From an uncultured Actinoplanes sp. (GTDB lineage: Bacteria > Actinomycetota > Actinomycetes > Mycobacteriales > Micromonosporaceae), in contig CAKUMG010000203.1 of assembly GCA_934667465.1 (NCBI GenBank), positions 1 to 8,440 of the forward strand: a stretch of DNA of 8,440 nucleotides, written 5' to 3'. The translations under genes and the position numbers were made by a program. The notes below the pieces were generated by a model. That model ran no database searches, was not told where the DNA came from, and saw nothing but the letters and a program-made list of their open reading frames with translations. Positions 1 to 8,278 of this stretch are shown one piece after another (position 1 is the stretch's first letter; the number at the start of each line of letters is the position of its first letter).

Positions 1-480
1 ATGGTCCGCGCCGAATGCGAGCACATCGTCGCCGAGGTCGTCCGCGAGACCGGCGTCCCGATCCTGATCGGCACGATGATCGAGATCCCCCGCGCCGCGC
101 TGACCGCCGACCAGATCGCCGAGGCGGCCGACTTCTTCTCCTTCGGCACCAACGACCTGACCCAGATGGCGTGGGGCTTCTCCCGCGACGACGTGGAGGG
201 CGCGTTCTTCTGGCGCTACCTCGAACTCGGCATCTTCGGCATCTCCCCGTTCGAGTCGCTCGACCGCGACGGCGTCGGGCGGCTCATCCGCATCGCCACC
301 GCCGAGGGCCGCAACGTCAAACCGGACCTCAAGCTCGGCGTCTGCGGCGAACACGGCGGCGACCCGGAATCGGTCCACTTCTTCCACGAGGTCGGCCTGG
401 ACTACGTCTCCTGCTCGCCCTTCCGCGTCCCGATCGCCCGCCTGGAAGCCGGCCGCGCCGCCGTCCTGCCCGCTCGCTAG
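1..480 (+). CDS. ppdK: Pyruvate, phosphate dikinase, C-terminal part (5' truncated by window edge)
   Basis: This is the last 159 residues of pyruvate phosphate dikinase, which interconverts pyruvate + ATP + Pi with PEP + AMP + PPi in the cytoplasm. The visible part is the C-terminal TIM-barrel (PEP/pyruvate-binding) domain. Family landmarks are intact: GTMIEIPRA at 24-32 with the metal-binding Glu28, [11 protein letters not shown] at 45-55 with Asn51/Asp52, FSRDD at 60-64, the catalytic-Cys loop [10 protein letters not shown] at 113-122 with Cys115 (equivalent to Cys831 of the Clostridium symbiosum enzyme), and [13 protein letters not shown] at 136-148. The ATG at base 1 aligns inside the family domain, not at a natural start; the full enzyme is near 880-900 residues, so about 700 residues lie to the left. 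The ORF ends cleanly in TAG at 478-480. The stop codon sits inside the first unit of a 35-bp tandem repeat. The neighbouring gene is convergent and no functional link is apparent. Confidence 0.95.
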
Positions 481-1761: not shown

Positions 1762-1978
1762 GTCCGCGGACCTTACCCGGAACTGACCGCGCGGGAGCGA
1801 CGCGCAACGCGCTGTCAGCCGGGACGGCCGTGCCCTGCCAGCGGGGGCGGCCCGCCGGAACGATGCCGCGGACGGGAAGCAGGGCCGTCGAATCGGGTGG
1901 CGGCAGCGGCGGAGCGCCGGCCCGGGCGACAGCCCCCTGGCGCCGGCCCGGGGCGCCTGCCGATCGGGCACGACGGCT

Positions 1979-2095
1979 CCGGCGCGGCGCCCCGATGTGC
2001 CCCGGCTCGATGGTGGAGGCCGGCTCGGAGCGGCACAGCGAGCCCGGTGCGGCACCCCGATGCGCCCCGGCCCGGATGGTGGAGGTCGGATCGGG
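1979..2095. repeat. Pair of about 50-bp imperfect direct repeats
   Basis: Copy A (1979-2028) and copy B (2044-2095) share the order CCGG(C/T)GCGGC(G/A)CCCCGATG, then (T/C)GCCCCGGC, then GATGGTGGAGG, then CGG and TCGG, with a few substitutions and a two-base length difference. Start-to-start distance is 65 bp. Copy B's halves form the 2064-2103 hairpin with the GATGGTGGAGG core in its loop; copy A can form a weaker CCGGC/GCCGG stem around the same core. This might be a REP-like intergenic element or a local duplication. Confidence 0.7.
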
Positions 2096-2103
2096 CCCGG
2101 GGC
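2064..2103 (-). terminator. Candidate terminator of the kinase operon
   Basis: GCCCCGGCCCG (2064-2074) pairs with CGGGCCCGGGGC (2092-2103), giving an 11-bp all-GC stem with a single bulged base and a 17-base loop. It begins about 30 bases after the kinase stop codon (2133-2135) in the direction of transcription. There is no U-tract. Position and strength suggest transcription termination or 3'-end protection of the operon mRNA. Confidence 0.5.
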
Positions 2104-2106
2104 GGC

Positions 2107-2147
2107 AGGGCGGGGTCAGCGCGAGGGCGGGGTCAGCGGGAGGGCGG
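2107..2147. repeat. 17-bp tandem repeat containing the kinase stop codon
   Basis: Copy 1 (2107-2123) and copy 2 (2124-2140) read AGGGCGGGGTCAGCG followed by (C/G)G, differing at one base. A 7-base partial copy (2141-2147) follows. Read on the minus strand, the TGA in copy 2 (2133-2135) is the stop of the histidine kinase, and copy 1 supplies the same TGA 17 bases later in another frame. Confidence 0.8.
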
Positions 2148-3611
2148 CTCCGTCAACGGCAGCTTGACCAGGAAGCGGGTGTTGCCGGGCTGGGAGTGCA
2201 GGGTGATGTCGCCGCCGTGGCCGTTGACGACGATGCGGTAGGAGATGTCGAGGCCGAGGCCCGTGCCCTCGCCGACCGCCTTGGTGGTGAAGAAGGGCTC
2301 GAAGACGCGCTTGCGCAGCTCCTCCGGGACGCCCGGGCCGGTGTCGCCGATGGAGACGATGAGGTGGTCGTCCTCGCGGGCGGTGGCCAGGGTGAGGGTG
2401 CCGGCGCCGTGCATCGCCTGGACCGCGTTGTCGATGATGTTGGTCCAGACCTGGTTGAGCTCGGCCGGGTGGGCCGGGATCTGGGGCAGCGTGCGGTCGT
2501 AGTCCTTGACGACCTTGACGCCGTCGCCGATCTTGTGGCCGAGCATCACGAGGGTGCTGTCGAGGCCGCTGTGCACGTCGATCCACTGGTGGGCGGCGCG
2601 GTCGAGCTGGCTGTACTGCTTGGCCGCGGTGACCAGGGAGGAGACGCGGCCGGTGGCGTCCTCGATGTCGCTCATCAGCTGCTCGGTCTCGAGCGCGTAG
2701 CCGAGCCAGTGGATGGCCTGGTCGAGCAGCTCGGGCGTGCCGACCCTGGCCTCGATCTCGTCGAGGCAGTCGACGTCGAGCCCGCCCTGTGCGAAGACCG
2801 GGGCGAGGTCCCAGCCGTTGGTGACGTTGCGCTCCTCCATCCAGTCGCCCAGCTCGTCCTCGCGGTCGGCGGCCTGCATGGCGGTCAGCGCCGGCGCCTT
2901 GGCCGCGCGCTCGATGACCTCCTCCTGCAGCTCGACCAGGGCGTCGAGGCGGTCCGGGGCGACCTTGCCGGCGGCGAGCATGCCGAGCTTGTGGCGCATG
3001 CCGGCGACGCGCTGGCGCAGGGCGCCGGTGGCGCGGCCGGCCGCGGCGGCCGGGTTGTTGAGCTCGTGCATCAGGCCGGCGGAGAGGGCGCCGAGGGCGG
3101 CGAGGCGCTGGCGCTCGCTGATCGCGGCCTGCGTGTTCTGGTAGCCCAGGGCGAGACCCTCGAGCAGGTGCAGCGCCATCGGGAACCACTCGCGCATCAG
3201 CTGGGCGAAGTCGCCCGCCTCGAGCACGAAGAAGTCGCTGTCGTCGAGGGCGTGCGCGCTCGTCGCATACTTGCGCTGGACGCCGTCGTCGCGGATGTAG
3301 GCCTGGACGGCGCCGAGGTAGACGCCGCGCTGCTCGGTGCGGGTGGTGCGGACGTCGTCCTGCCCGACCCGGCGGGTGAGCGCGATCGTGCCGCTGAGCA
3401 GCACCAGGAACAGCTCGGCCGGGTCGCCCTCGCGGATGACCACGGAACCGGCCGGGGCGTGCATGGTGCAGCCGTGCTCCGCGATCCAGGCGAGCTGGTC
3501 GTCGGTCAGTTTCTCGAACAGGAACAGCGTCTTGAGCTCGGCGGCGGAGAGCTTGCCCGGCTCGCAGGGCGCGAGCCGGACGTCTCCGGAGGAGTCGAGT
3601 CTGTCGCTCAT
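2133..3611 (-). CDS. Sensor histidine kinase with N-terminal cyclic-nucleotide-binding-like domain
   Basis: A 492-residue cytoplasmic protein without transmembrane segments. Residues about 25-140 form a cNMP-binding-type beta-barrel (LFEKLTDDQLAWIAEHG, then GSVVIREGDPAELFLVLLSGTIAL). The phosphate-binding cassette is atypical (YLGAVQAYIRDDG at 98-110), without the usual Glu and Arg, so cAMP binding is doubtful. The kinase core follows: phospho-acceptor His182 in LMHELNNP, a long helical insert (about 200-310), N-box NQVWTNIIDNAVQAM (386-400), G1 box DTGPGVP (423-429), F-box FEPFFTTK (437-444) and G2 box GEGTGLGL (447-454). His182 and Asn386 are 204 residues apart, much longer than in a standard kinase. 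The ATG at 3611-3609 overlaps the stop of the upstream gene (TGATG), and GGAGG at 3619-3623 sits 7 bases before it, so the two genes are translationally coupled. Its likely partner is the receiver domain of that upstream protein. The signal it senses is unknown. Confidence 0.92.
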   Translation of the reverse strand: MSDRLDSSGDVRLAPCEPGKLSAAELKTLFLFEKLTDDQLAWIAEHGCTMHAPAGSVVIREGDPAELFLVLLSGTIALTRRVGQDDVRTTRTEQRGVYLGAVQAYIRDDGVQRKYATSAHALDDSDFFVLEAGDFAQLMREWFPMALHLLEGLALGYQNTQAAISERQRLAALGALSAGLMHELNNPAAAAGRATGALRQRVAGMRHKLGMLAAGKVAPDRLDALVELQEEVIERAAKAPALTAMQAADREDELGDWMEERNVTNGWDLAPVFAQGGLDVDCLDEIEARVGTPELLDQAIHWLGYALETEQLMSDIEDATGRVSSLVTAAKQYSQLDRAAHQWIDVHSGLDSTLVMLGHKIGDGVKVVKDYDRTLPQIPAHPAELNQVWTNIIDNAVQAMHGAGTLTLATAREDDHLIVSIGDTGPGVPEELRKRVFEPFFTTKAVGEGTGLGLDISYRIVVNGHGGDITLHSQPGNTRFLVKLPLTEPPSR

Positions 3612-5269
3612 CACTGCGCCTCCAGATAGCGGTGGACCAGCGTGACGGCCATCGCGCCCTCGCCGACCGCCGAGGCCACCCGCTTGACCGAGTTGGCCCG
3701 GACGTCGCCGGCGGCGAAGATGCCGGGAACACTGCACTCCAGGTAGAACGGATCGCGGTCCCGATCCCATCCCGCCGGGCGGTTGCCATTTGCCAGCAGG
3801 TCCGGCCCGGTGTAGACGAAGCCCTTGCCGTCGCGGGCCACCGCGTCGCCGAGCCAGTCGGTGCGCGGCTCGGCGCCGATGAAGATGAAGAGGTAACCGC
3901 ACTCGACCGAGGCCCGGTTGCCCTCCTTGTTGTCGCAGATGGTGATCGCCTGCAGGTGCCCGTTGCCCTCGGCGGCGACGACCTCGCAGCGGGTCCGCAC
4001 CTTGATGTTGGGGACCTGCGCGAGCTGCTGGATGAGGTAGTAGGACATGGACGCCTCGAGCGAGTCGCCGCGGACCAGCAGCGTGACCGTGCGCGCATAC
4101 TTCGAGAAGAACAGCGCCGCCTGCCCGGCCGAGTTGGCGCCGCCGACGATGTAGACGTCGCTGCCGGCGCACGAGGGGCCCTCGGTCGCGGCCGAGCCGT
4201 AGTAGACGCCCGAGCCGGTCAGCTGCGCAATGCCCTCCGCGGCCAGCGGGCGGTAGGAGACGCCGGTGGCCAGCACGATCGAGTGCGCGGAGACCTCGCC
4301 GCCGTCGGCGAACGTCAGCGTGCGGGCGGAACCGTCGGCCCGCAGGCCGGTGACCTCGCGGGTGTTGAGCACCTCGGCCTCGAACTTGCCCGCCTGGCGC
4401 CGAGCCCGGTCGGTCAGCTGGGCGCCGGAGACGCCGTCGGGGAAGCCCAGATAATTCTCGATGCGGGAGCTCTGGCCGGCCTGGCCGCCGACGGCCTGCC
4501 GCTCGACGAGCAGCGTCTTGAGGCCCTCGGAGGCGCCGTAGACGGCCGCGCCCAGCCCGGCCGGGCCGCCGCCGACGATGACGAGGTCGTAGAAGTCGCG
4601 GTTGGGGCTGGTGGAGAGCCCGGCAGCCTCGGCCACCTCGAGCGTGGTGGGCTTGGTCAGGGCCCGGCCGTCGGCGGTCACCACGAGCGGGACGGACTCG
4701 GGGCCGACCCCCGCGGCGTCGAGCAGGCGGCGCCCCTCGGGGTCGTCGGCCGAGAACCACTGGTAGGGCACCAGGTTGCGGGCCAGGAAGTCGCGGATCT
4801 CGTAGGACCCCTCGCTCCAGCGGTGCCCGACCACCCGGATGTCGGCGACCTCGCGGTCGTGGGTGGCCTGCCACGCGTCGAGCAGGGCGTCGATCACCGG
4901 GTAGAGCTTCTCCTCCGGCGGGTCCCAGGGCTTGAGCAGGTAGTGATCGACGTCGACCACGTTGATCGCCTGGATCGCGGCGTCGGTGTCGGCATACGCC
5001 GTGAGCAGGGCCCGCCGGGCGCGGGGGAACAGGTCCATCGCCTGCTCGAGGAACTCGATGCCGTTCATCTGGGGCATGCGGTAGTCGGCGAGGATCACGG
5101 CGACCCGGCCGCCGCGCAACTTGATGTCGCGGAGCGCCTCGAGCGCGTCGGCGGCCGAGGAGGCCCGGATGATGCGGTAGTGCTCGCCGTAACGCCGGCG
5201 CAGGTCGCGGGCGATGGCCCGGGACACCGAGGGGTCGTCGTCGACGGTCAGGATCGCGGCATTACCCAT
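3611..5269 (-). CDS. Response regulator fused to a thioredoxin-reductase-like FAD/NAD(P)H oxidoreductase
   Basis: A 552-residue soluble three-part protein. (1) Receiver domain, residues 1-130: acidic pocket Asp10-12, phospho-acceptor Asp62 in LADYRMP, Thr90 and Lys113 in LLKPW, all intact. (2) Glutaredoxin/thioredoxin-fold domain, about 143-218, with a cis-Pro-type SVPLV (192-196); the expected CxxC position reads Ser152-Glu-Gly-Ser155. (3) Thioredoxin-reductase-like flavoprotein, about 225-552: FAD-binding GGGPAG at 233-238, the nucleotide-binding IVGGANSAGQAA at 374-385, and the second FAD contact GIFAAGDV at 516-523. The redox CxxC of true thioredoxin reductase is missing; the region reads GVYYGSAATEGPSC (354-367), leaving one nearby Cys. 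It probably oxidises NAD(P)H through FAD, but the acceptor is unknown. GAGGA (5276-5280) lies 6 bases before the ATG. It is the middle gene of the operon, overlapping the kinase gene by one base. Databases name such proteins fused response regulator/thioredoxin-disulfide reductase; the missing cysteines argue against reading that literally. Confidence 0.93.
   Translation of the reverse strand: MGNAAILTVDDDPSVSRAIARDLRRRYGEHYRIIRASSAADALEALRDIKLRGGRVAVILADYRMPQMNGIEFLEQAMDLFPRARRALLTAYADTDAAIQAINVVDVDHYLLKPWDPPEEKLYPVIDALLDAWQATHDREVADIRVVGHRWSEGSYEIRDFLARNLVPYQWFSADDPEGRRLLDAAGVGPESVPLVVTADGRALTKPTTLEVAEAAGLSTSPNRDFYDLVIVGGGPAGLGAAVYGASEGLKTLLVERQAVGGQAGQSSRIENYLGFPDGVSGAQLTDRARRQAGKFEAEVLNTREVTGLRADGSARTLTFADGGEVSAHSIVLATGVSYRPLAAEGIAQLTGSGVYYGSAATEGPSCAGSDVYIVGGANSAGQAALFFSKYARTVTLLVRGDSLEASMSYYLIQQLAQVPNIKVRTRCEVVAAEGNGHLQAITICDNKEGNRASVECGYLFIFIGAEPRTDWLGDAVARDGKGFVYTGPDLLANGNRPAGWDRDRDPFYLECSVPGIFAAGDVRANSVKRVASAVGEGAMAVTLVHRYLEAQ
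3619..3623 (-). promoter_or_regulatory. Ribosome binding site of the kinase gene, inside the upstream coding region
   Basis: GGAGG on the minus strand, 7 bases before the ATG at 3611, lies in the last codons of the flavoprotein gene. It fixes the kinase start at the TGATG overlap and rules out the longer open frame running up to 4874. Confidence 0.8.
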
Positions 5270-5275
5270 GAGCAG

Positions 5276-5280
5276 TCCTC
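5276..5280 (-). promoter_or_regulatory. Ribosome binding site of the flavoprotein gene
   Basis: GAGGA on the minus strand, 6 bases before the ATG at 5269. The whole 51-base gap to the NAD kinase stop (5321) shows no terminator-like hairpin with a T-run, in keeping with co-transcription. Confidence 0.7.
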
Positions 5281-5320
5281 AGCCGTAGGGGGTCTCGGTC
5301 GGGGGGTGGGCGGCGCCGGG

Positions 5321-6493
5321 TCAGGCGGTCGCCACGGATGCGTCCGCGAGGACGTCGCGGTATTCGGGGTGACGGTCGAGCCAGCCGGCGACGAACGGGC
5401 AGGTGACCGTGACCGGGGTGGCGCGGCGGCGGGCGTCGAGCATCGCGGCGGCGGCCAGGCGCCCGCCCAGCCCGCGGCCCTCGAACGCCTGGTCGATCTC
5501 GGTGTGGGCCAGCTCGACCCCGGTGCCGTGCCGGCGGTAGTGCAGGGAGCCGGCCGGCTCGCCGCCGAGCAGGACCTCGTAGCGCGACTGCTCGAAGCTG
5601 TCGACCACGACCGCGTCGGCCGGGTCGCCGCCGCCGACCTGGGCGCTGCCCTCGACCCGCAGCTTGCGCCGGGCCCGCTCGTAGAACGAGGTGCTGCCGA
5701 ACCGGATGACCTGGGCGGCGCCGGGGACCGGCACGATCCGCAGCTGCTGGCCGGGCTCGGCATTGCCCTGGATGATGCCGTCCACCTCGATCGCGAGCTT
5801 GCCGCTGGTGGGCAGCACGTCGAGCTCGAGCTGCTCGGAGGGGGCCAGCATCAGCGAGCGGTTGAACGACGAGTGCGCGGCGGCCGCGCTGACCAGCAGG
5901 CCCTCCACGTTGGGGGAGACGATCGGGCCGCCGGCGGAGAAGCTGTAGGCCGTGGAGCCGGTCGGGGTGGCCACGATGACCGCGTCGGCCGCGTAGCGCA
6001 CGAAGTTGCTGCCCTCGACGTTGATGCCGACGTGGGCCAGGCCGTCGCCGGGCACGCGGACCAGCGCGATGTCGTTGAAGGCGGACACCTCACGGCCGTC
6101 GGGCAGGACGGTGCGCACCGCGGTCCGCGGCTCGATCGTGAACTCGTGCTCGTCGATCGACGACAGGGCGCCGGGCAGGTCGGGCAGGTCGACCTCGGCC
6201 AGGAAGCCCAGCCGGCCCACGTTGACGCCGAGCACCGGGGTCTTGCGCCCCTCGACCAGGCGCATCGTGCGCAGCATCGTGCCGTCGCCGCCCAGGCTGA
6301 CCAGCAGGCCGGCGCGCTCGACCATCTCCTCGGCGGTGACCGCCTCGGCGTCGCAGTCGATCCGGGTGATCTCGTCGTGCAGCCCCAGCACGGTCACCCC
6401 GCGCGACGCCGCCCAGCGCACGATGGCGTCGATGGCGGACCCGCAGTCACGCCGCGGGTGCAGAACCAGCCCGACCACCTTGACCATGCCCAT
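5321..6493 (-). CDS. NAD kinase fused to a C-terminal GNAT acetyltransferase domain
   Basis: A 390-residue fusion. Residues 1-285 are an ATP-NAD kinase, which phosphorylates NAD to NADP in the cytoplasm: N-terminal VGLVLHPRRD (7-16), the catalytic GGDGT motif (68-72, Asp70), FND at 139-141 where the family usually has NE, ATPTGSTAYSFSAGGPIVSP at 175-194, and VDG at 237-239. SFYERARRKLRVEGS (269-283) is the normal end of an actinobacterial NAD kinase. After a short Gly/Asp/Ala linker (about 286-296), residues 300-378 form a small GNAT domain of the YjdJ-like type: SRYEVLLGGEPAGSLHYRRHG, LAHTEID (328-334), acetyl-CoA loop EGRGLGG (338-344), and CPFVAGWLDRHPEY (365-378). The frame is continuous through the junction. 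GAGGTG (6500-6505) lies 6 bases before the ATG at 6493; the ATG at 6487 is less well spaced. It is not next to tlyA/recN, the usual place of the main actinobacterial NAD kinase, so it may be a second paralogue, which is why I give no symbol. It is probably the first gene of the operon, supplying NADP(H) near an NAD(P)H-using protein. Confidence 0.9.
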   Translation of the reverse strand: MGMVKVVGLVLHPRRDCGSAIDAIVRWAASRGVTVLGLHDEITRIDCDAEAVTAEEMVERAGLLVSLGGDGTMLRTMRLVEGRKTPVLGVNVGRLGFLAEVDLPDLPGALSSIDEHEFTIEPRTAVRTVLPDGREVSAFNDIALVRVPGDGLAHVGINVEGSNFVRYAADAVIVATPTGSTAYSFSAGGPIVSPNVEGLLVSAAAAHSSFNRSLMLAPSEQLELDVLPTSGKLAIEVDGIIQGNAEPGQQLRIVPVPGAAQVIRFGSTSFYERARRKLRVEGSAQVGGGDPADAVVVDSFEQSRYEVLLGGEPAGSLHYRRHGTGVELAHTEIDQAFEGRGLGGRLAAAAMLDARRRATPVTVTCPFVAGWLDRHPEYRDVLADASVATA

Positions 6494-6499
6494 CGGTTG

Positions 6500-6505
6500 C
6501 ACCTC
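6500..6505 (-). promoter_or_regulatory. Ribosome binding site deciding the NAD kinase start
   Basis: GAGGTG on the minus strand, 6 bases before the ATG at 6493 and 12 before the next in-frame ATG at 6487. It favours 6493 and shows that the open frame up to 6661 is leader, not protein. Confidence 0.65.
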
Positions 6506-6521
6506 GTGCTCGCTCCGGCGG

Positions 6522-6559
6522 CCCGCGGGAGCGGACCGGCCCCCCGGACTCCCGGCGGG
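6522..6559 (-). other. Compound GC hairpin in the NAD kinase leader
   Basis: Nested inverted repeats: CCCG (6522-6525) with CGGG (6556-6559), GGGAG (6527-6531) with CTCCC (6549-6553), and CCGG (6536-6539) with CCGG (6544-6547) around a four-base loop. It lies about 30 bases upstream of the start codon, within the presumed 5' leader. It may affect translation or be incidental in such GC-rich sequence. Confidence 0.35.
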
Positions 6560-6628
6560 ACAGCGTTCAGCCTCGCACGTCCACCCGAAGGACGGCGAGC
6601 GCCGCCGGGCGACCTTGGGATGCATCGA

Positions 6629-6649
6629 ACCGTCAACATTCTTGACAGT
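6629..6649. promoter_or_regulatory. Inverted repeat formed by back-to-back TTGAC elements
   Basis: ACCGTCAA (6629-6636) and TTGACAGT (6642-6649) are inverted repeats matching at 7 of 8 positions with a 5-base centre. The right arm is a perfect -35 hexamer TTGACA for the protease; the left arm is TTGACG on the opposite strand, facing the NAD kinase operon. It could be an operator, two divergent -35 boxes, or both. I see no good -10 for the minus-strand promoter. Confidence 0.45.
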
Positions 6650-6670
6650 GCCGCTCGCCATAGACAGACT
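6642..6670 (+). promoter_or_regulatory. Candidate promoter of the secreted protease gene
   Basis: TTGACA (6642-6647), a 17-base spacer, then CAGACT (6665-6670) as a weak -10 with the conserved A at position 2 and T at position 6. The predicted transcription start is near 6677, leaving a leader of about 48 bases before the ATG at 6725. Confidence 0.5.
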
Positions 6671-6677
6671 CCGATGT

Positions 6678-6691
6678 GGAGAGCGCTCCCC
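6678..6691. promoter_or_regulatory. CebR/CelR-like LacI-family operator at the protease transcription start
   Basis: The 14-mer GGAGAGCGCTCCCC has the palindromic core AGCGCT and matches the known CebR/CelR box TGGGAGCGCTCCCA at 11 of 14 positions. It begins one base after the predicted transcription start, a classic position for a repressor. CebR/CelR repressors control cellulose-use genes in Streptomyces and Thermobifida; the regulator here is not in the window. Confidence 0.5.
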
Positions 6692-6709
6692 TTCCCCCTG
6701 AAGTGCAGC

Positions 6710-6716
6710 GGAAGGA
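6710..6716 (+). promoter_or_regulatory. Ribosome binding site of the protease gene
   Basis: GGAAGGA, 8 bases before the ATG at 6725. It fixes the start directly in front of the signal peptide, although the reading frame is open far upstream. Confidence 0.75.
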
Positions 6717-6724
6717 CTCCCCCC

Positions 6725-8278
6725 ATGTCACCTGTCCGCACCATGCTGGGCGCAGCCGTGACCGCGCTCACCCTTTTCGGCGCGGCCCCTTCACCGGGCC
6801 ACGCCGCACCGGCCGTTCCCGCCGACACCGGCGCAGCGGCCGCCGAGCAGCGCTTCGCGATGGCCCCGGAGATGGTCGCCGCCCTGCGCCGCGACCTTGG
6901 CCTCACCGGCGACGAACTGGCCGCGCGCCTGGCCACCGAGGCCGCCGCCCCGGTCGTGCAGCGCCGGCTGACGACCGCGCTCGGGAACGCGTACGGCGGA
7001 GCCTGGATCCCCGCAGGCAGCAGCCGGCTCACCGTCGCCGTCACGGATCCCGCGAAGGCGGCGAAGGTCCGGGCCGAGGGCGCGGTGCCGGCGATCGTCG
7101 GACGCAGCGCCCGGGACCTCACCGCCGACCGGGAACGGCTCGACCGGGCGGCGGCGCGCGCTCCGAAGAGCACGATCCACAGCTGGTACGTGGATCCGGC
7201 CCGCAACAGCGTCGTCATCGCCGCGGCACCGGGCGCGGAGGCGGCGGCCCGCACGTTCGCGGCGGCGGCCGGCGTCACCGGGGCCGAGGTCGTCGCGAGC
7301 ACCGGGGCGCCGCGCCCGCTCTACGACATCCGGGGCGGCGACCAGTACGTCATCAACGGCAACACCCTCTGCTCCGTGGGCTTCGCGGTCGCGGGCGGCT
7401 TCGTGAGCGCGGGCCACTGCGGCGGCGTCAACAGCCCGACCCTGGGCAACAACAACGTCGCGCAGGGCACGTTCGCCGGCTCGTCGTTCCCCGGCAACGA
7501 CTACGCGTGGATCCGGACCAACGGCAACTGGACGCCGCAGCCGTGGGTCAACAACTACGCGGGTGGCACGGTCACCGTCGCGGGCTCGCAGGACGCGGCG
7601 ATCGGGAGCTCGATCTGCCGCTCCGGGCGCACGACCGGCTGGCGCTGCGGCACGCTGGAGGCCCGCAACGCGACGGTGAACTATCAGCAGGGCGCGGTCA
7701 CGGGCATGGGCCGTACGAGTGCCTGCGCCGAACCCGGCGACTCCGGCGGCTCCTTCATCGCGGGCAACCAGGCCCAGGGTGTCACCTCCGGCGGCAGCGG
7801 CAACTGCTCCTCCGGCGGCACCACGTACTTCCAGCCGGTGAACGAGATCCTCGGCGTCTACGGCCTGTCGCTGACCACCACGGGCGGCGGCGGCAGCGGC
7901 GGCGCGCTCGTCAGCAACTGGAACAACAAGTGCGTCGACGTGCCGGACGGGATCTTCAACGACGGCGTCCCGGTCCAGATGTGGGGCTGCAACCAGTCCG
8001 CCGCGCAGCGCTGGACCGCCGTCAACGGCACGCTGCAGACCTCGAACAACAAGTGCCTCGACGTGGCCTGGGGCTCGACAGCCAACGGCGCCGCGATCCA
8101 GATCGTCGGCTGCAGCGGCAACCCGGCGCAGCAGTGGGTGCTGTCGGCGGCCGGCGACCTGGTCAACCCGCAGGCCAACAAGTGCATCGACATCGCGGAC
8201 TGGAACGGCAACGACAGGGCCCGGCTGCAGCTGTGGGACTGCGCCGGCACGCTCAATCAGAAGTGGCGCCGTGGGTAG
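6725..8278 (+). CDS. Secreted S1-family serine protease (alpha-lytic/streptogrisin type) with C-terminal ricin-type lectin domain
   Basis: A 517-residue secreted prepro-enzyme. Signal peptide: residues 1 to about 27 (Arg5, then a hydrophobic stretch, likely cleavage after GHA). Pro-region: about 40-198, of the alpha-lytic protease type, including a TVAVTDPAKAAKVRAEGA stretch (103-120) and SWYVDPARNSVVI (153-165). The mature protease starts near LYDIRGGDQYVING (199-212). The catalytic triad is intact: His231 in SAGHC, Asp259 in GNDYAW, Ser340 in GDSGGS. Cysteines are placed for the three expected disulfides (216-232, 298-308, 334-361). A Gly/Ser linker (386-393) leads to a 124-residue ricin B-type beta-trefoil with three repeats, each with a K-C-(V/L/I)-D motif (402-405, 443-446, 486-489) and a QxW motif (Gln428-Trp430, Gln469-Trp471, Gln512-Trp514). 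The lectin should hold the enzyme on polysaccharide or glycoprotein substrates; streptogrisin C instead carries a chitin-binding domain. It is divergent from the NAD kinase operon and probably controlled by the LacI-type operator upstream. Confidence 0.95.
   Translation: MSPVRTMLGAAVTALTLFGAAPSPGHAAPAVPADTGAAAAEQRFAMAPEMVAALRRDLGLTGDELAARLATEAAAPVVQRRLTTALGNAYGGAWIPAGSSRLTVAVTDPAKAAKVRAEGAVPAIVGRSARDLTADRERLDRAAARAPKSTIHSWYVDPARNSVVIAAAPGAEAAARTFAAAAGVTGAEVVASTGAPRPLYDIRGGDQYVINGNTLCSVGFAVAGGFVSAGHCGGVNSPTLGNNNVAQGTFAGSSFPGNDYAWIRTNGNWTPQPWVNNYAGGTVTVAGSQDAAIGSSICRSGRTTGWRCGTLEARNATVNYQQGAVTGMGRTSACAEPGDSGGSFIAGNQAQGVTSGGSGNCSSGGTTYFQPVNEILGVYGLSLTTTGGGGSGGALVSNWNNKCVDVPDGIFNDGVPVQMWGCNQSAAQRWTAVNGTLQTSNNKCLDVAWGSTANGAAIQIVGCSGNPAQQWVLSAAGDLVNPQANKCIDIADWNGNDRARLQLWDCAGTLNQKWRRG

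Follow-up and report, generated by a model that had tools for sequence, protein, structure and literature searches.

The sequence analysed, referred to below as the window, was the whole 8,440-nucleotide stretch of contig CAKUMG010000203.1 from an uncultured Actinoplanes sp. It contained three genes in a row on the minus strand: an NAD kinase fused to a GNAT domain (5321–6493), a flavoprotein headed by a receiver domain (3611–5269) and a soluble histidine kinase (2133–3611). A sequence-only reading of the window had described three genes with these domains on one strand, the last two overlapping by a single base; the arrangement was borne out by open reading frames and domain profiles, and the overlap by the letters TGATG. 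The features were as follows:

5321–6493, minus strand: NAD kinase of a separate subfamily, GNAT-fused, 390 aa
5636–6487, minus strand: NAD kinase part, with GGDG and FND motifs
5351–5584, minus strand: GNAT domain (PF14542)
5270–5320, minus strand: 51-bp gap between NAD kinase and flavoprotein, with GAGGAC, resembling a ribosome-binding site, ahead of the flavoprotein start
3611–5269, minus strand: flavoprotein, 552 aa, consisting of a receiver, a degenerate thioredoxin-like domain and a thioredoxin-reductase-like FAD/NAD(P)H module
4850–5269, minus strand: receiver domain, residues 1–140 (profile match 6–118)
5084–5086, minus strand: Asp62, predicted phospho-acceptor
4616–4849, minus strand: thioredoxin-like domain without active-site Cys, residues 141–218
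3614–4600, minus strand: FAD/NAD(P)H module of thioredoxin-reductase fold, residues 224–552 (Pyr_redox_2 at 227–538)
4184–4195, minus strand: SAAT where thioredoxin reductase has its redox CXXC, residues 359–362
3609–3613, minus strand: TGATG, flavoprotein stop and kinase start with one base in common
2133–3611, minus strand: soluble histidine kinase, 492 aa, with a cyclic-nucleotide-binding-type domain (CNBD), a DHp domain with helical insert, and HATPase_c
3183–3545, minus strand: CNBD of the kinase, residues 23–143 (PF00027 at 51–140), from profile and model
3066–3068, minus strand: His182, predicted phospho-acceptor in the HELNNP box (H in 97/97 aligned kinases)
2736–2963, minus strand: predicted insert of four helices separating the two DHp helices, residues 217–292, from the model
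2151–2468, minus strand: HATPase_c catalytic domain, residues 382–487 (86 bits)

The gene spacing would fit a single transcript, and a scan of 1900–6800 found no terminator-like hairpin and no promoter or terminator site. The closest relatives of the flavoprotein came from Actinoplanes and its kin, at 92% identity.

A search for co-occurrence, set beforehand as the test that could refute the proposed grouping, found the linkage of kinase and flavoprotein to be conserved. Among 80 genome loci (the best 80 of at least 589 relatives in a scan with the kinase alignment, one genome per species and all actinomycete), the flavoprotein gene immediately preceded that of the kinase in 79, and L025 lacked it. 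Ten plasmid loci spanning four phyla were also fetched (Tsukamurella, Streptomyces, Nocardia, Nonomuraea, Deinococcus, two Nostoc, Gloeothece, Paraburkholderia and Caballeronia), and in nine of them the kinase adjoined the flavoprotein; these flavoproteins were full-length, with 51–67% identity, and the fetched set excluded H24 (37.6% identity, 95% covered) and the matches from H11 onward except H29. In the tenth plasmid locus, L006, a transposase gene followed the flavoprotein and a CNBD-kinase was situated about 8.6 kb upstream. A set of 246 genomes sampled from across the actinomycete phylum gave 39 long kinase matches, of which 37 were within 6 kb of a receiver-flavoprotein; 59 full-length receiver-flavoproteins were found in 44 of these genomes, with a kinase adjacent to 30. 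This count left out matches starting after residue 147, which were plain reductases, and fragments (G067, G156, G204:C65, G204:C177, G210:C1:2488315, G236:C156 and the second piece of G233). Chance neighbourhood of the pair was rejected on these figures (79/80 loci and 37/39 long matches). The pair had previously been described as a recurring family of no characterised function; it recurred in four phyla, and no functional study of it was among the titles and abstracts listed from open-licence PubMed Central (PMC). Locus maps were drawn with a home-made gene caller, which put some kinase genes on the wrong strand, and served as rough maps only. Each of the three cyanobacterial plasmid loci (L006, L009 and L010) had glgX and an AGE-family epimerase gene just upstream of the flavoprotein.

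The condition of the receiver was compared with the presence of a neighbouring kinase for full-length receiver types only (n = 107). The window receiver retained its whole pocket (D11, D12, D62, T90 and K113), and the pocket was intact in all 87 kinase-adjacent sequences, allowing Glu at D11/D12 and Ser at T90. Where no kinase was adjacent despite room on the contig (n = 17), 16 receivers were damaged and one, L006, was intact; three flavoproteins at contig ends comprised two intact receivers and one damaged. The 17 damaged receivers (L096–L105 and L107–L113; 16 without an adjacent kinase and one cut by a contig end) had lost Thr90 in every case, Asp62 in 12 and Lys113 in nine. Behind these receivers, the three glycines of GxGxxG, Q263 and G521-D522 were present in 17/17 sequences, R400 in 16/17 and E537 in 13/17. 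The tie between receiver integrity and an adjacent kinase supports putative phosphotransfer between the two proteins. Because the damaged-receiver relatives keep the FAD/NAD(P)H site, the flavoprotein part apparently stays useful when phosphorylation is absent, and the receiver is therefore favoured as the input of the flavoprotein.

The sequence-only reading had described a degenerate thioredoxin fold behind the receiver, and this agreed with the structure model of the flavoprotein (predicted local distance difference test, pLDDT, 73; predicted template modelling score, pTM, 0.54), in which residues 144–216 were predicted to form a beta-alpha-beta-alpha-beta-beta-alpha arrangement. SEGS (152–155) aligned with the CPDC of two thioredoxin-fused relatives, L120 and L121. 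Both places of the active-site Cys were Ser in 76 of 90 sequences with intact receivers, and the second was Cys in six of the 90. The thioredoxin-reductase site, on which the sequence-only reading had not commented, was likewise altered: CXXC was absent there from all 114 sequences (90 intact, 17 damaged and 7 with a CNBD fused to the flavoprotein), whereas both thioredoxin-fused controls kept CPDC and CATC. A CxxC was found elsewhere in two intact sequences, L036 and L029, that of L029 being at 367–370, a few residues past the lost site. These residue counts left out L032, L087 and L106, which were partial or frameshifted; in L087 (165–1872) the flavoprotein was spread over two frames, probably through a frameshift.

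Over residues 224–552 the FAD and NAD(P)H domains had a fold shared with thioredoxin reductase and AhpF, AhpF being the top Foldseek match. The flavoprotein scored below the cut-offs of TIGR01292 (213.4 bits against 343.45) and of TIGR03140, the AhpF family (162.6 bits against 502.9). Residues for FAD and NAD(P)H were invariant or almost so across the intact, damaged and CNBD-fused sequences. R400 was kept in 90/90 intact and 7/7 CNBD-fused sequences and aligned with the first Arg of the HRR motif of thioredoxin reductase, presumably the position at which that enzyme binds the 2'-phosphate of NADPH; NADPH is therefore the likelier coenzyme of the flavoprotein. In the CNBD-fused relatives the CNBD was confirmed in 7/7, and the remainder was the same thioredoxin-like and FAD/NAD(P)H part. 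On a Rhodococcus plasmid (L011, 4277–6236), the fusion of CNBD and flavoprotein was accompanied by trxA and zf-UBP, and this group followed clpB and a J-domain gene in what may be a stress operon. Judged by its missing CXXC, the receiver-flavoprotein does not suit its database name of thioredoxin reductase, and an identity as a thioredoxin or AhpC reductase was rejected since neither the FAD/NAD(P)H part nor the thioredoxin-like domain has a CXXC.

The kinase possessed the phospho-acceptor His and the ATP-binding N and G boxes expected of a HisKA-type two-component kinase. H182 was found within AGLMHELNNP, and all eight motif residues (H182, E183, N395, D423, G425, G449, G451 and G453) were kept in 94 of 97 kinases. 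The structure model (pLDDT 76, pTM 0.37) predicted a 73-residue helix bearing H182, followed by the four-helix insert (219–290), which the sequence-only reading had not mentioned, a second long helix (293–337) and the ATPase domain. The kinase had been described as carrying a cyclic nucleotide monophosphate (cNMP) domain; the domain assignment stood, since PF00027 scored 39.3 bits against a gathering score of 27.5, but the cassette of true cNMP binders does not appear to be clearly kept. In such binders the phosphate-binding cassette has GE and an Arg. The window kinase had GA for GE, and Arg was found in columns 110–116 in 39 of 97 kinases, where the alignment is uncertain. Three kinases of the same type followed one receiver-flavoprotein in a row in L185–L187, and genes for DUF924 and an MFS transporter came after them. 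A second annotated ATP-binding protein was situated near the flavoprotein in L005 and L008, and in L067 and L090 a stop codon fell within the matched kinase range.

The start of the NAD kinase was set at 6493 because GAGGTG lies six bases ahead; Pfam searches used the protein from the ATG at 6487. PF01513 (55.8 bits), PF20143 (81.8 bits) and PF14542 all scored over their cut-offs, both NAD kinase domains were present, and GGDG was at residue 66. The best NCBIfam equivalog, NF002892, was not reached (177.7 bits against 299). Identity to the window NAD kinase was 55–91% within its own subfamily and at most 45% for other NAD kinases; additionally, the subfamily had FND at a position where, among 12 other NAD kinases from such genomes, nine had LNE and the remaining three also had ND. 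The protein had at least 7784 database relatives, and the best 120 matches of a homology search were all GNAT-fused. The fusion was seen in the Actinoplanes group and also in Virgisporangium (L177), where it was unlinked. Near the kinase-flavoprotein pair of a Deinococcus (L005) there was an unfused GNAT belonging to that Pfam family. In 9/9 Actinoplanes-group genomes searched there were two to three NAD kinase matches above 50 bits, and the subfamily NAD kinase is thus not the sole copy there.

Co-occurrence of this subfamily with the flavoprotein was counted in two sets of genomes, with no correction for phylogeny. In the family of G001 (150 genomes), the flavoprotein was present in 60 of 63 genomes with the NAD kinase subfamily and in 39 of the 87 that lack it; for the order of G012 (Planotetraspora; 121 genomes), the corresponding values were 39 of 42 and 24 of 79. 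Flavoprotein rows were taken at 53% identity or more, excluding a 40–48% class, the CNBD class, the partial rows G262, G264 and G287, and second copies in G278, G334, G353 and G380; with the three partial rows counted, flavoprotein-only genomes in the order set would be 27 rather than 24. Where the genes were linked, the NAD kinase was upstream in relatives of Actinoplanes (no more than 500 bp from the flavoprotein in 19/60 of the family set) and downstream in Streptosporangiales (about 1.5 kb away with the kinase between, in 12/39 of the order set). In 40/60 and 27/39 genomes, respectively, it was more than 2.5 kb from the flavoprotein or on another contig. Linkage of the same subfamily in two gene orders argues for a functional tie. 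The proposed linkage of the NAD kinase stood in so far as it recurs in two different orders, but it was confined to part of the actinomycetes.

By gene neighbourhood, a zf-UBP zinc finger is a fourth recurring partner. The sequence-only reading had not included it because the window holds none, and tblastn found nothing there. A zf-UBP gene belonged to the cluster in 42 of the 80 genome loci, 38 times behind the kinase and 4 times ahead of the flavoprotein, in one case on the opposite strand. Six genomes (L014/L165, L164/L174, L166, L167, L168 and L175) had it on the same strand in the interval that separates NAD kinase and flavoprotein, and five (L169–L173) had it in that interval on the other strand. 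Among the 246 actinomycete genomes, zf-UBP was present in 37 of 45 with the receiver-flavoprotein against 19 of 201 without; in a hand-chosen set it was present in 15/15 pair-bearing genomes and 2/14 controls. The stretches examined contained the pair with zf-UBP in 38/80 loci and the pair alone in 26/80. The suggestion that the three window genes form a self-contained NADPH-sensing module was not upheld, given these arrangements and the restriction of NAD kinase linkage to part of the actinomycetes.

Fusions of a receiver to a thioredoxin-reductase-like part (REC-TrxR) have already been catalogued in censuses of two-component proteins. One such census (PMC9953108), covering 17 thermophilic cyanobacteria, includes a single TrxB-type regulator, found in one of them; the REC-TrxB regulators resemble the window protein in combining a receiver with a thioredoxin-reductase-like part, and the census passages mention neither a partner kinase nor an NAD kinase, zf-UBP, a lost CXXC or a function for them. 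TrxB itself shares the fold of residues 224–552 and the FAD and NAD(P)H motifs, but the window flavoprotein differs in having no CXXC, Arg-Gly for Arg-Arg at the NADPH site, and a receiver and a thioredoxin-like domain in front. AhpF likewise has a thioredoxin-like domain ahead of a thioredoxin-reductase-like core; it has two such domains, whereas the window flavoprotein has one, neither CXXC, and a receiver in front. Ferredoxin/flavodoxin-NADP reductases of thioredoxin-reductase fold, and similar proteins (6gar, 2zbw), are stand-alone enzymes not known to carry a receiver, and they scored below thioredoxin reductases by sequence. The CNBD proteins annotated as thioredoxin reductases on plasmids have the same thioredoxin-like and FAD/NAD(P)H part, again with no CXXC, and that of L011 has a zf-UBP gene as its neighbour, but their input is a fused CNBD in contrast to the receiver and CNBD-kinase of the window. 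NadK, the polyphosphate/ATP NAD kinase (e.g., 1u0r), has GGDG and nucleotide motifs in common with the window NAD kinase, which differs in its FND (mostly LNE elsewhere), its GNAT fusion in the Actinoplanes group and its scores below NCBIfam cut-offs. Among the entries listed from open-licence PMC there was no account of the kinase, NAD kinase, zf-UBP or function of this module, and nothing on a second bacterial NAD kinase subfamily or on bacterial zf-UBP proteins.

The reading judged rather probable is that the kinase phosphorylates Asp62 and thereby switches NADPH-driven electron transfer by the CXXC-less flavoprotein, with the NAD kinase supplying NADP. The kinase would autophosphorylate at His182 and then pass the phosphate to Asp62; the phosphorylated receiver would gate the flavoprotein, rather than the reverse, and the gated flavoprotein would deliver electrons from NADPH to an acceptor that is not a thioredoxin disulfide. 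The NAD kinase would contribute to the pool of NADP on which the flavoprotein draws, and the zf-UBP protein, encoded outside the window, would likely handle a protein target in the same pathway. The receiver and CNBD-kinase would then be a two-protein version of the direct CNBD control in the CNBD-fused relatives. A broader proposal is possible but on balance doubtful: a widespread two-component system acting on electron flow instead of genes, its thiol-free flavoprotein handing electrons from NADPH to a new acceptor, with an NAD kinase of its own that raises the NADP pool and a zf-UBP protein picking the target by its C-terminal tail, in which receiver plus CNBD-kinase and CNBD fusion are interchangeable means of sensory control over one redox enzyme.

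Several observations weigh against gating of the flavoprotein by the kinase with an NAD kinase in support. Asp62 was retained in 5/17 damaged receivers, and two of the 17 (L097 and L104) were altered at Thr90 only. All 17 formed one clade (Shimodaira-Hasegawa-like approximate likelihood ratio test, SH-aLRT, 100, in a quick tree of 62 sequences from the part behind the receiver), and the association of receiver and kinase therefore reflects one evolutionary event; the pattern reads as one loss followed by many different decays within the clade. Covariation of kinase and receiver (87 pairs; effective sequence number, Neff, 40, at which such a scan is uninformative) was not enriched at the expected interface, with 3 receiver-DHp1 couplings observed against 4.7 expected and 4 against 3.7 for receiver-DHp2; a mild excess was seen between the thioredoxin-like part and the CNBD (17 against 7.6). 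Because the kinase served to retrieve the 80 genome loci, kinase-adjacent flavoproteins are over-represented; 68 of the 80 had no linked NAD kinase in the stretches examined. Finally, the genome co-occurrence counts ignore kinship.

The direction of control could be opposite. The sequence-only reading had proposed either phosphorylation-gated redox chemistry or redox feedback on the kinase; since both damaged-receiver and CNBD-fused relatives keep the FAD/NAD(P)H site, the flavoprotein is favoured as output rather than sensor, although the reverse direction is possible. As a sensor, its NADPH-reduced FAD would alter the receiver or the kinase, and the real output would be another protein. Loss of both thiol sites is more in keeping with a sensor than with a disulfide reductase, the co-occurring NAD kinase would link the module to the NADP pool, and the three consecutive kinases beside one flavoprotein in L185–L187 could represent a shared hub. 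However, a sensor needs a further output, and the rough maps revealed no recurring DNA-binding partner, no systematic search having been made; the two recurring neighbours in L184–L187 were DUF924 and an MFS transporter. The damaged-receiver relatives retain the flavin site, and the CNBD-fused relatives present another input domain on the same flavoprotein. The sensor is accordingly regarded as a minority possibility, albeit one to be taken seriously.

It is unlikely that kinase and flavoprotein cooperate while the NAD kinase is a chance neighbour in a housekeeping role. Its restricted linkage among actinomycetes, and its distance from the flavoprotein in 40/60 and 27/39 genomes with both, would suit such a neighbour, but linkage of the same subfamily in two gene orders, near-complete genome co-occurrence (60/63 and 39/42) and the two to three NAD kinase matches in 9/9 Actinoplanes-group genomes speak for more than chance. 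The kinase might instead signal mainly to other response regulators, with the fused receiver as a phosphate sink; the kinase was without a flavoprotein in the stretches examined of L025, L012 and L013, but pairing was nearly complete in the other loci, which makes this very improbable. A conventional thioredoxin or peroxiredoxin reductase to which a receiver has been joined would account for the database names and the C-terminal fold, yet it is contradicted by the missing CXXC in either part and by the TIGR01292 score (213 bits against 343), and is hardly credible. A phage-defence role and an RNA element were both rejected, the window having no match in PADLOC or Rfam, which says only that nothing described in those resources matches it.

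Beyond the cluster, the window held a divergent gene (6725–8278, plus strand) for a predicted secreted protease with an alpha-lytic-protease prodomain (PF02983) and a ricin-type lectin domain (PF00652), relatives of which were found near the cluster in L014–L017 and L020. Positions 1–480 (plus strand) encoded the C-terminal end of a pyruvate, phosphate dikinase, truncated by the window edge.

If gating of the flavoprotein by the kinase is correct, a phosphorylation signal would act directly on how NADPH is used, and would do so in many actinomycetes as well as some cyanobacteria, deinococci and burkholderias. Signal control would then be exerted on the redox chemistry of the cell itself, instead of on genes, through a protein named thioredoxin reductase in databases. 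The relatives with damaged receivers and those with a fused CNBD would serve as natural controls for the role of the receiver, and a role would be provided for both a second bacterial NAD kinase subfamily and the bacterial zf-UBP proteins.

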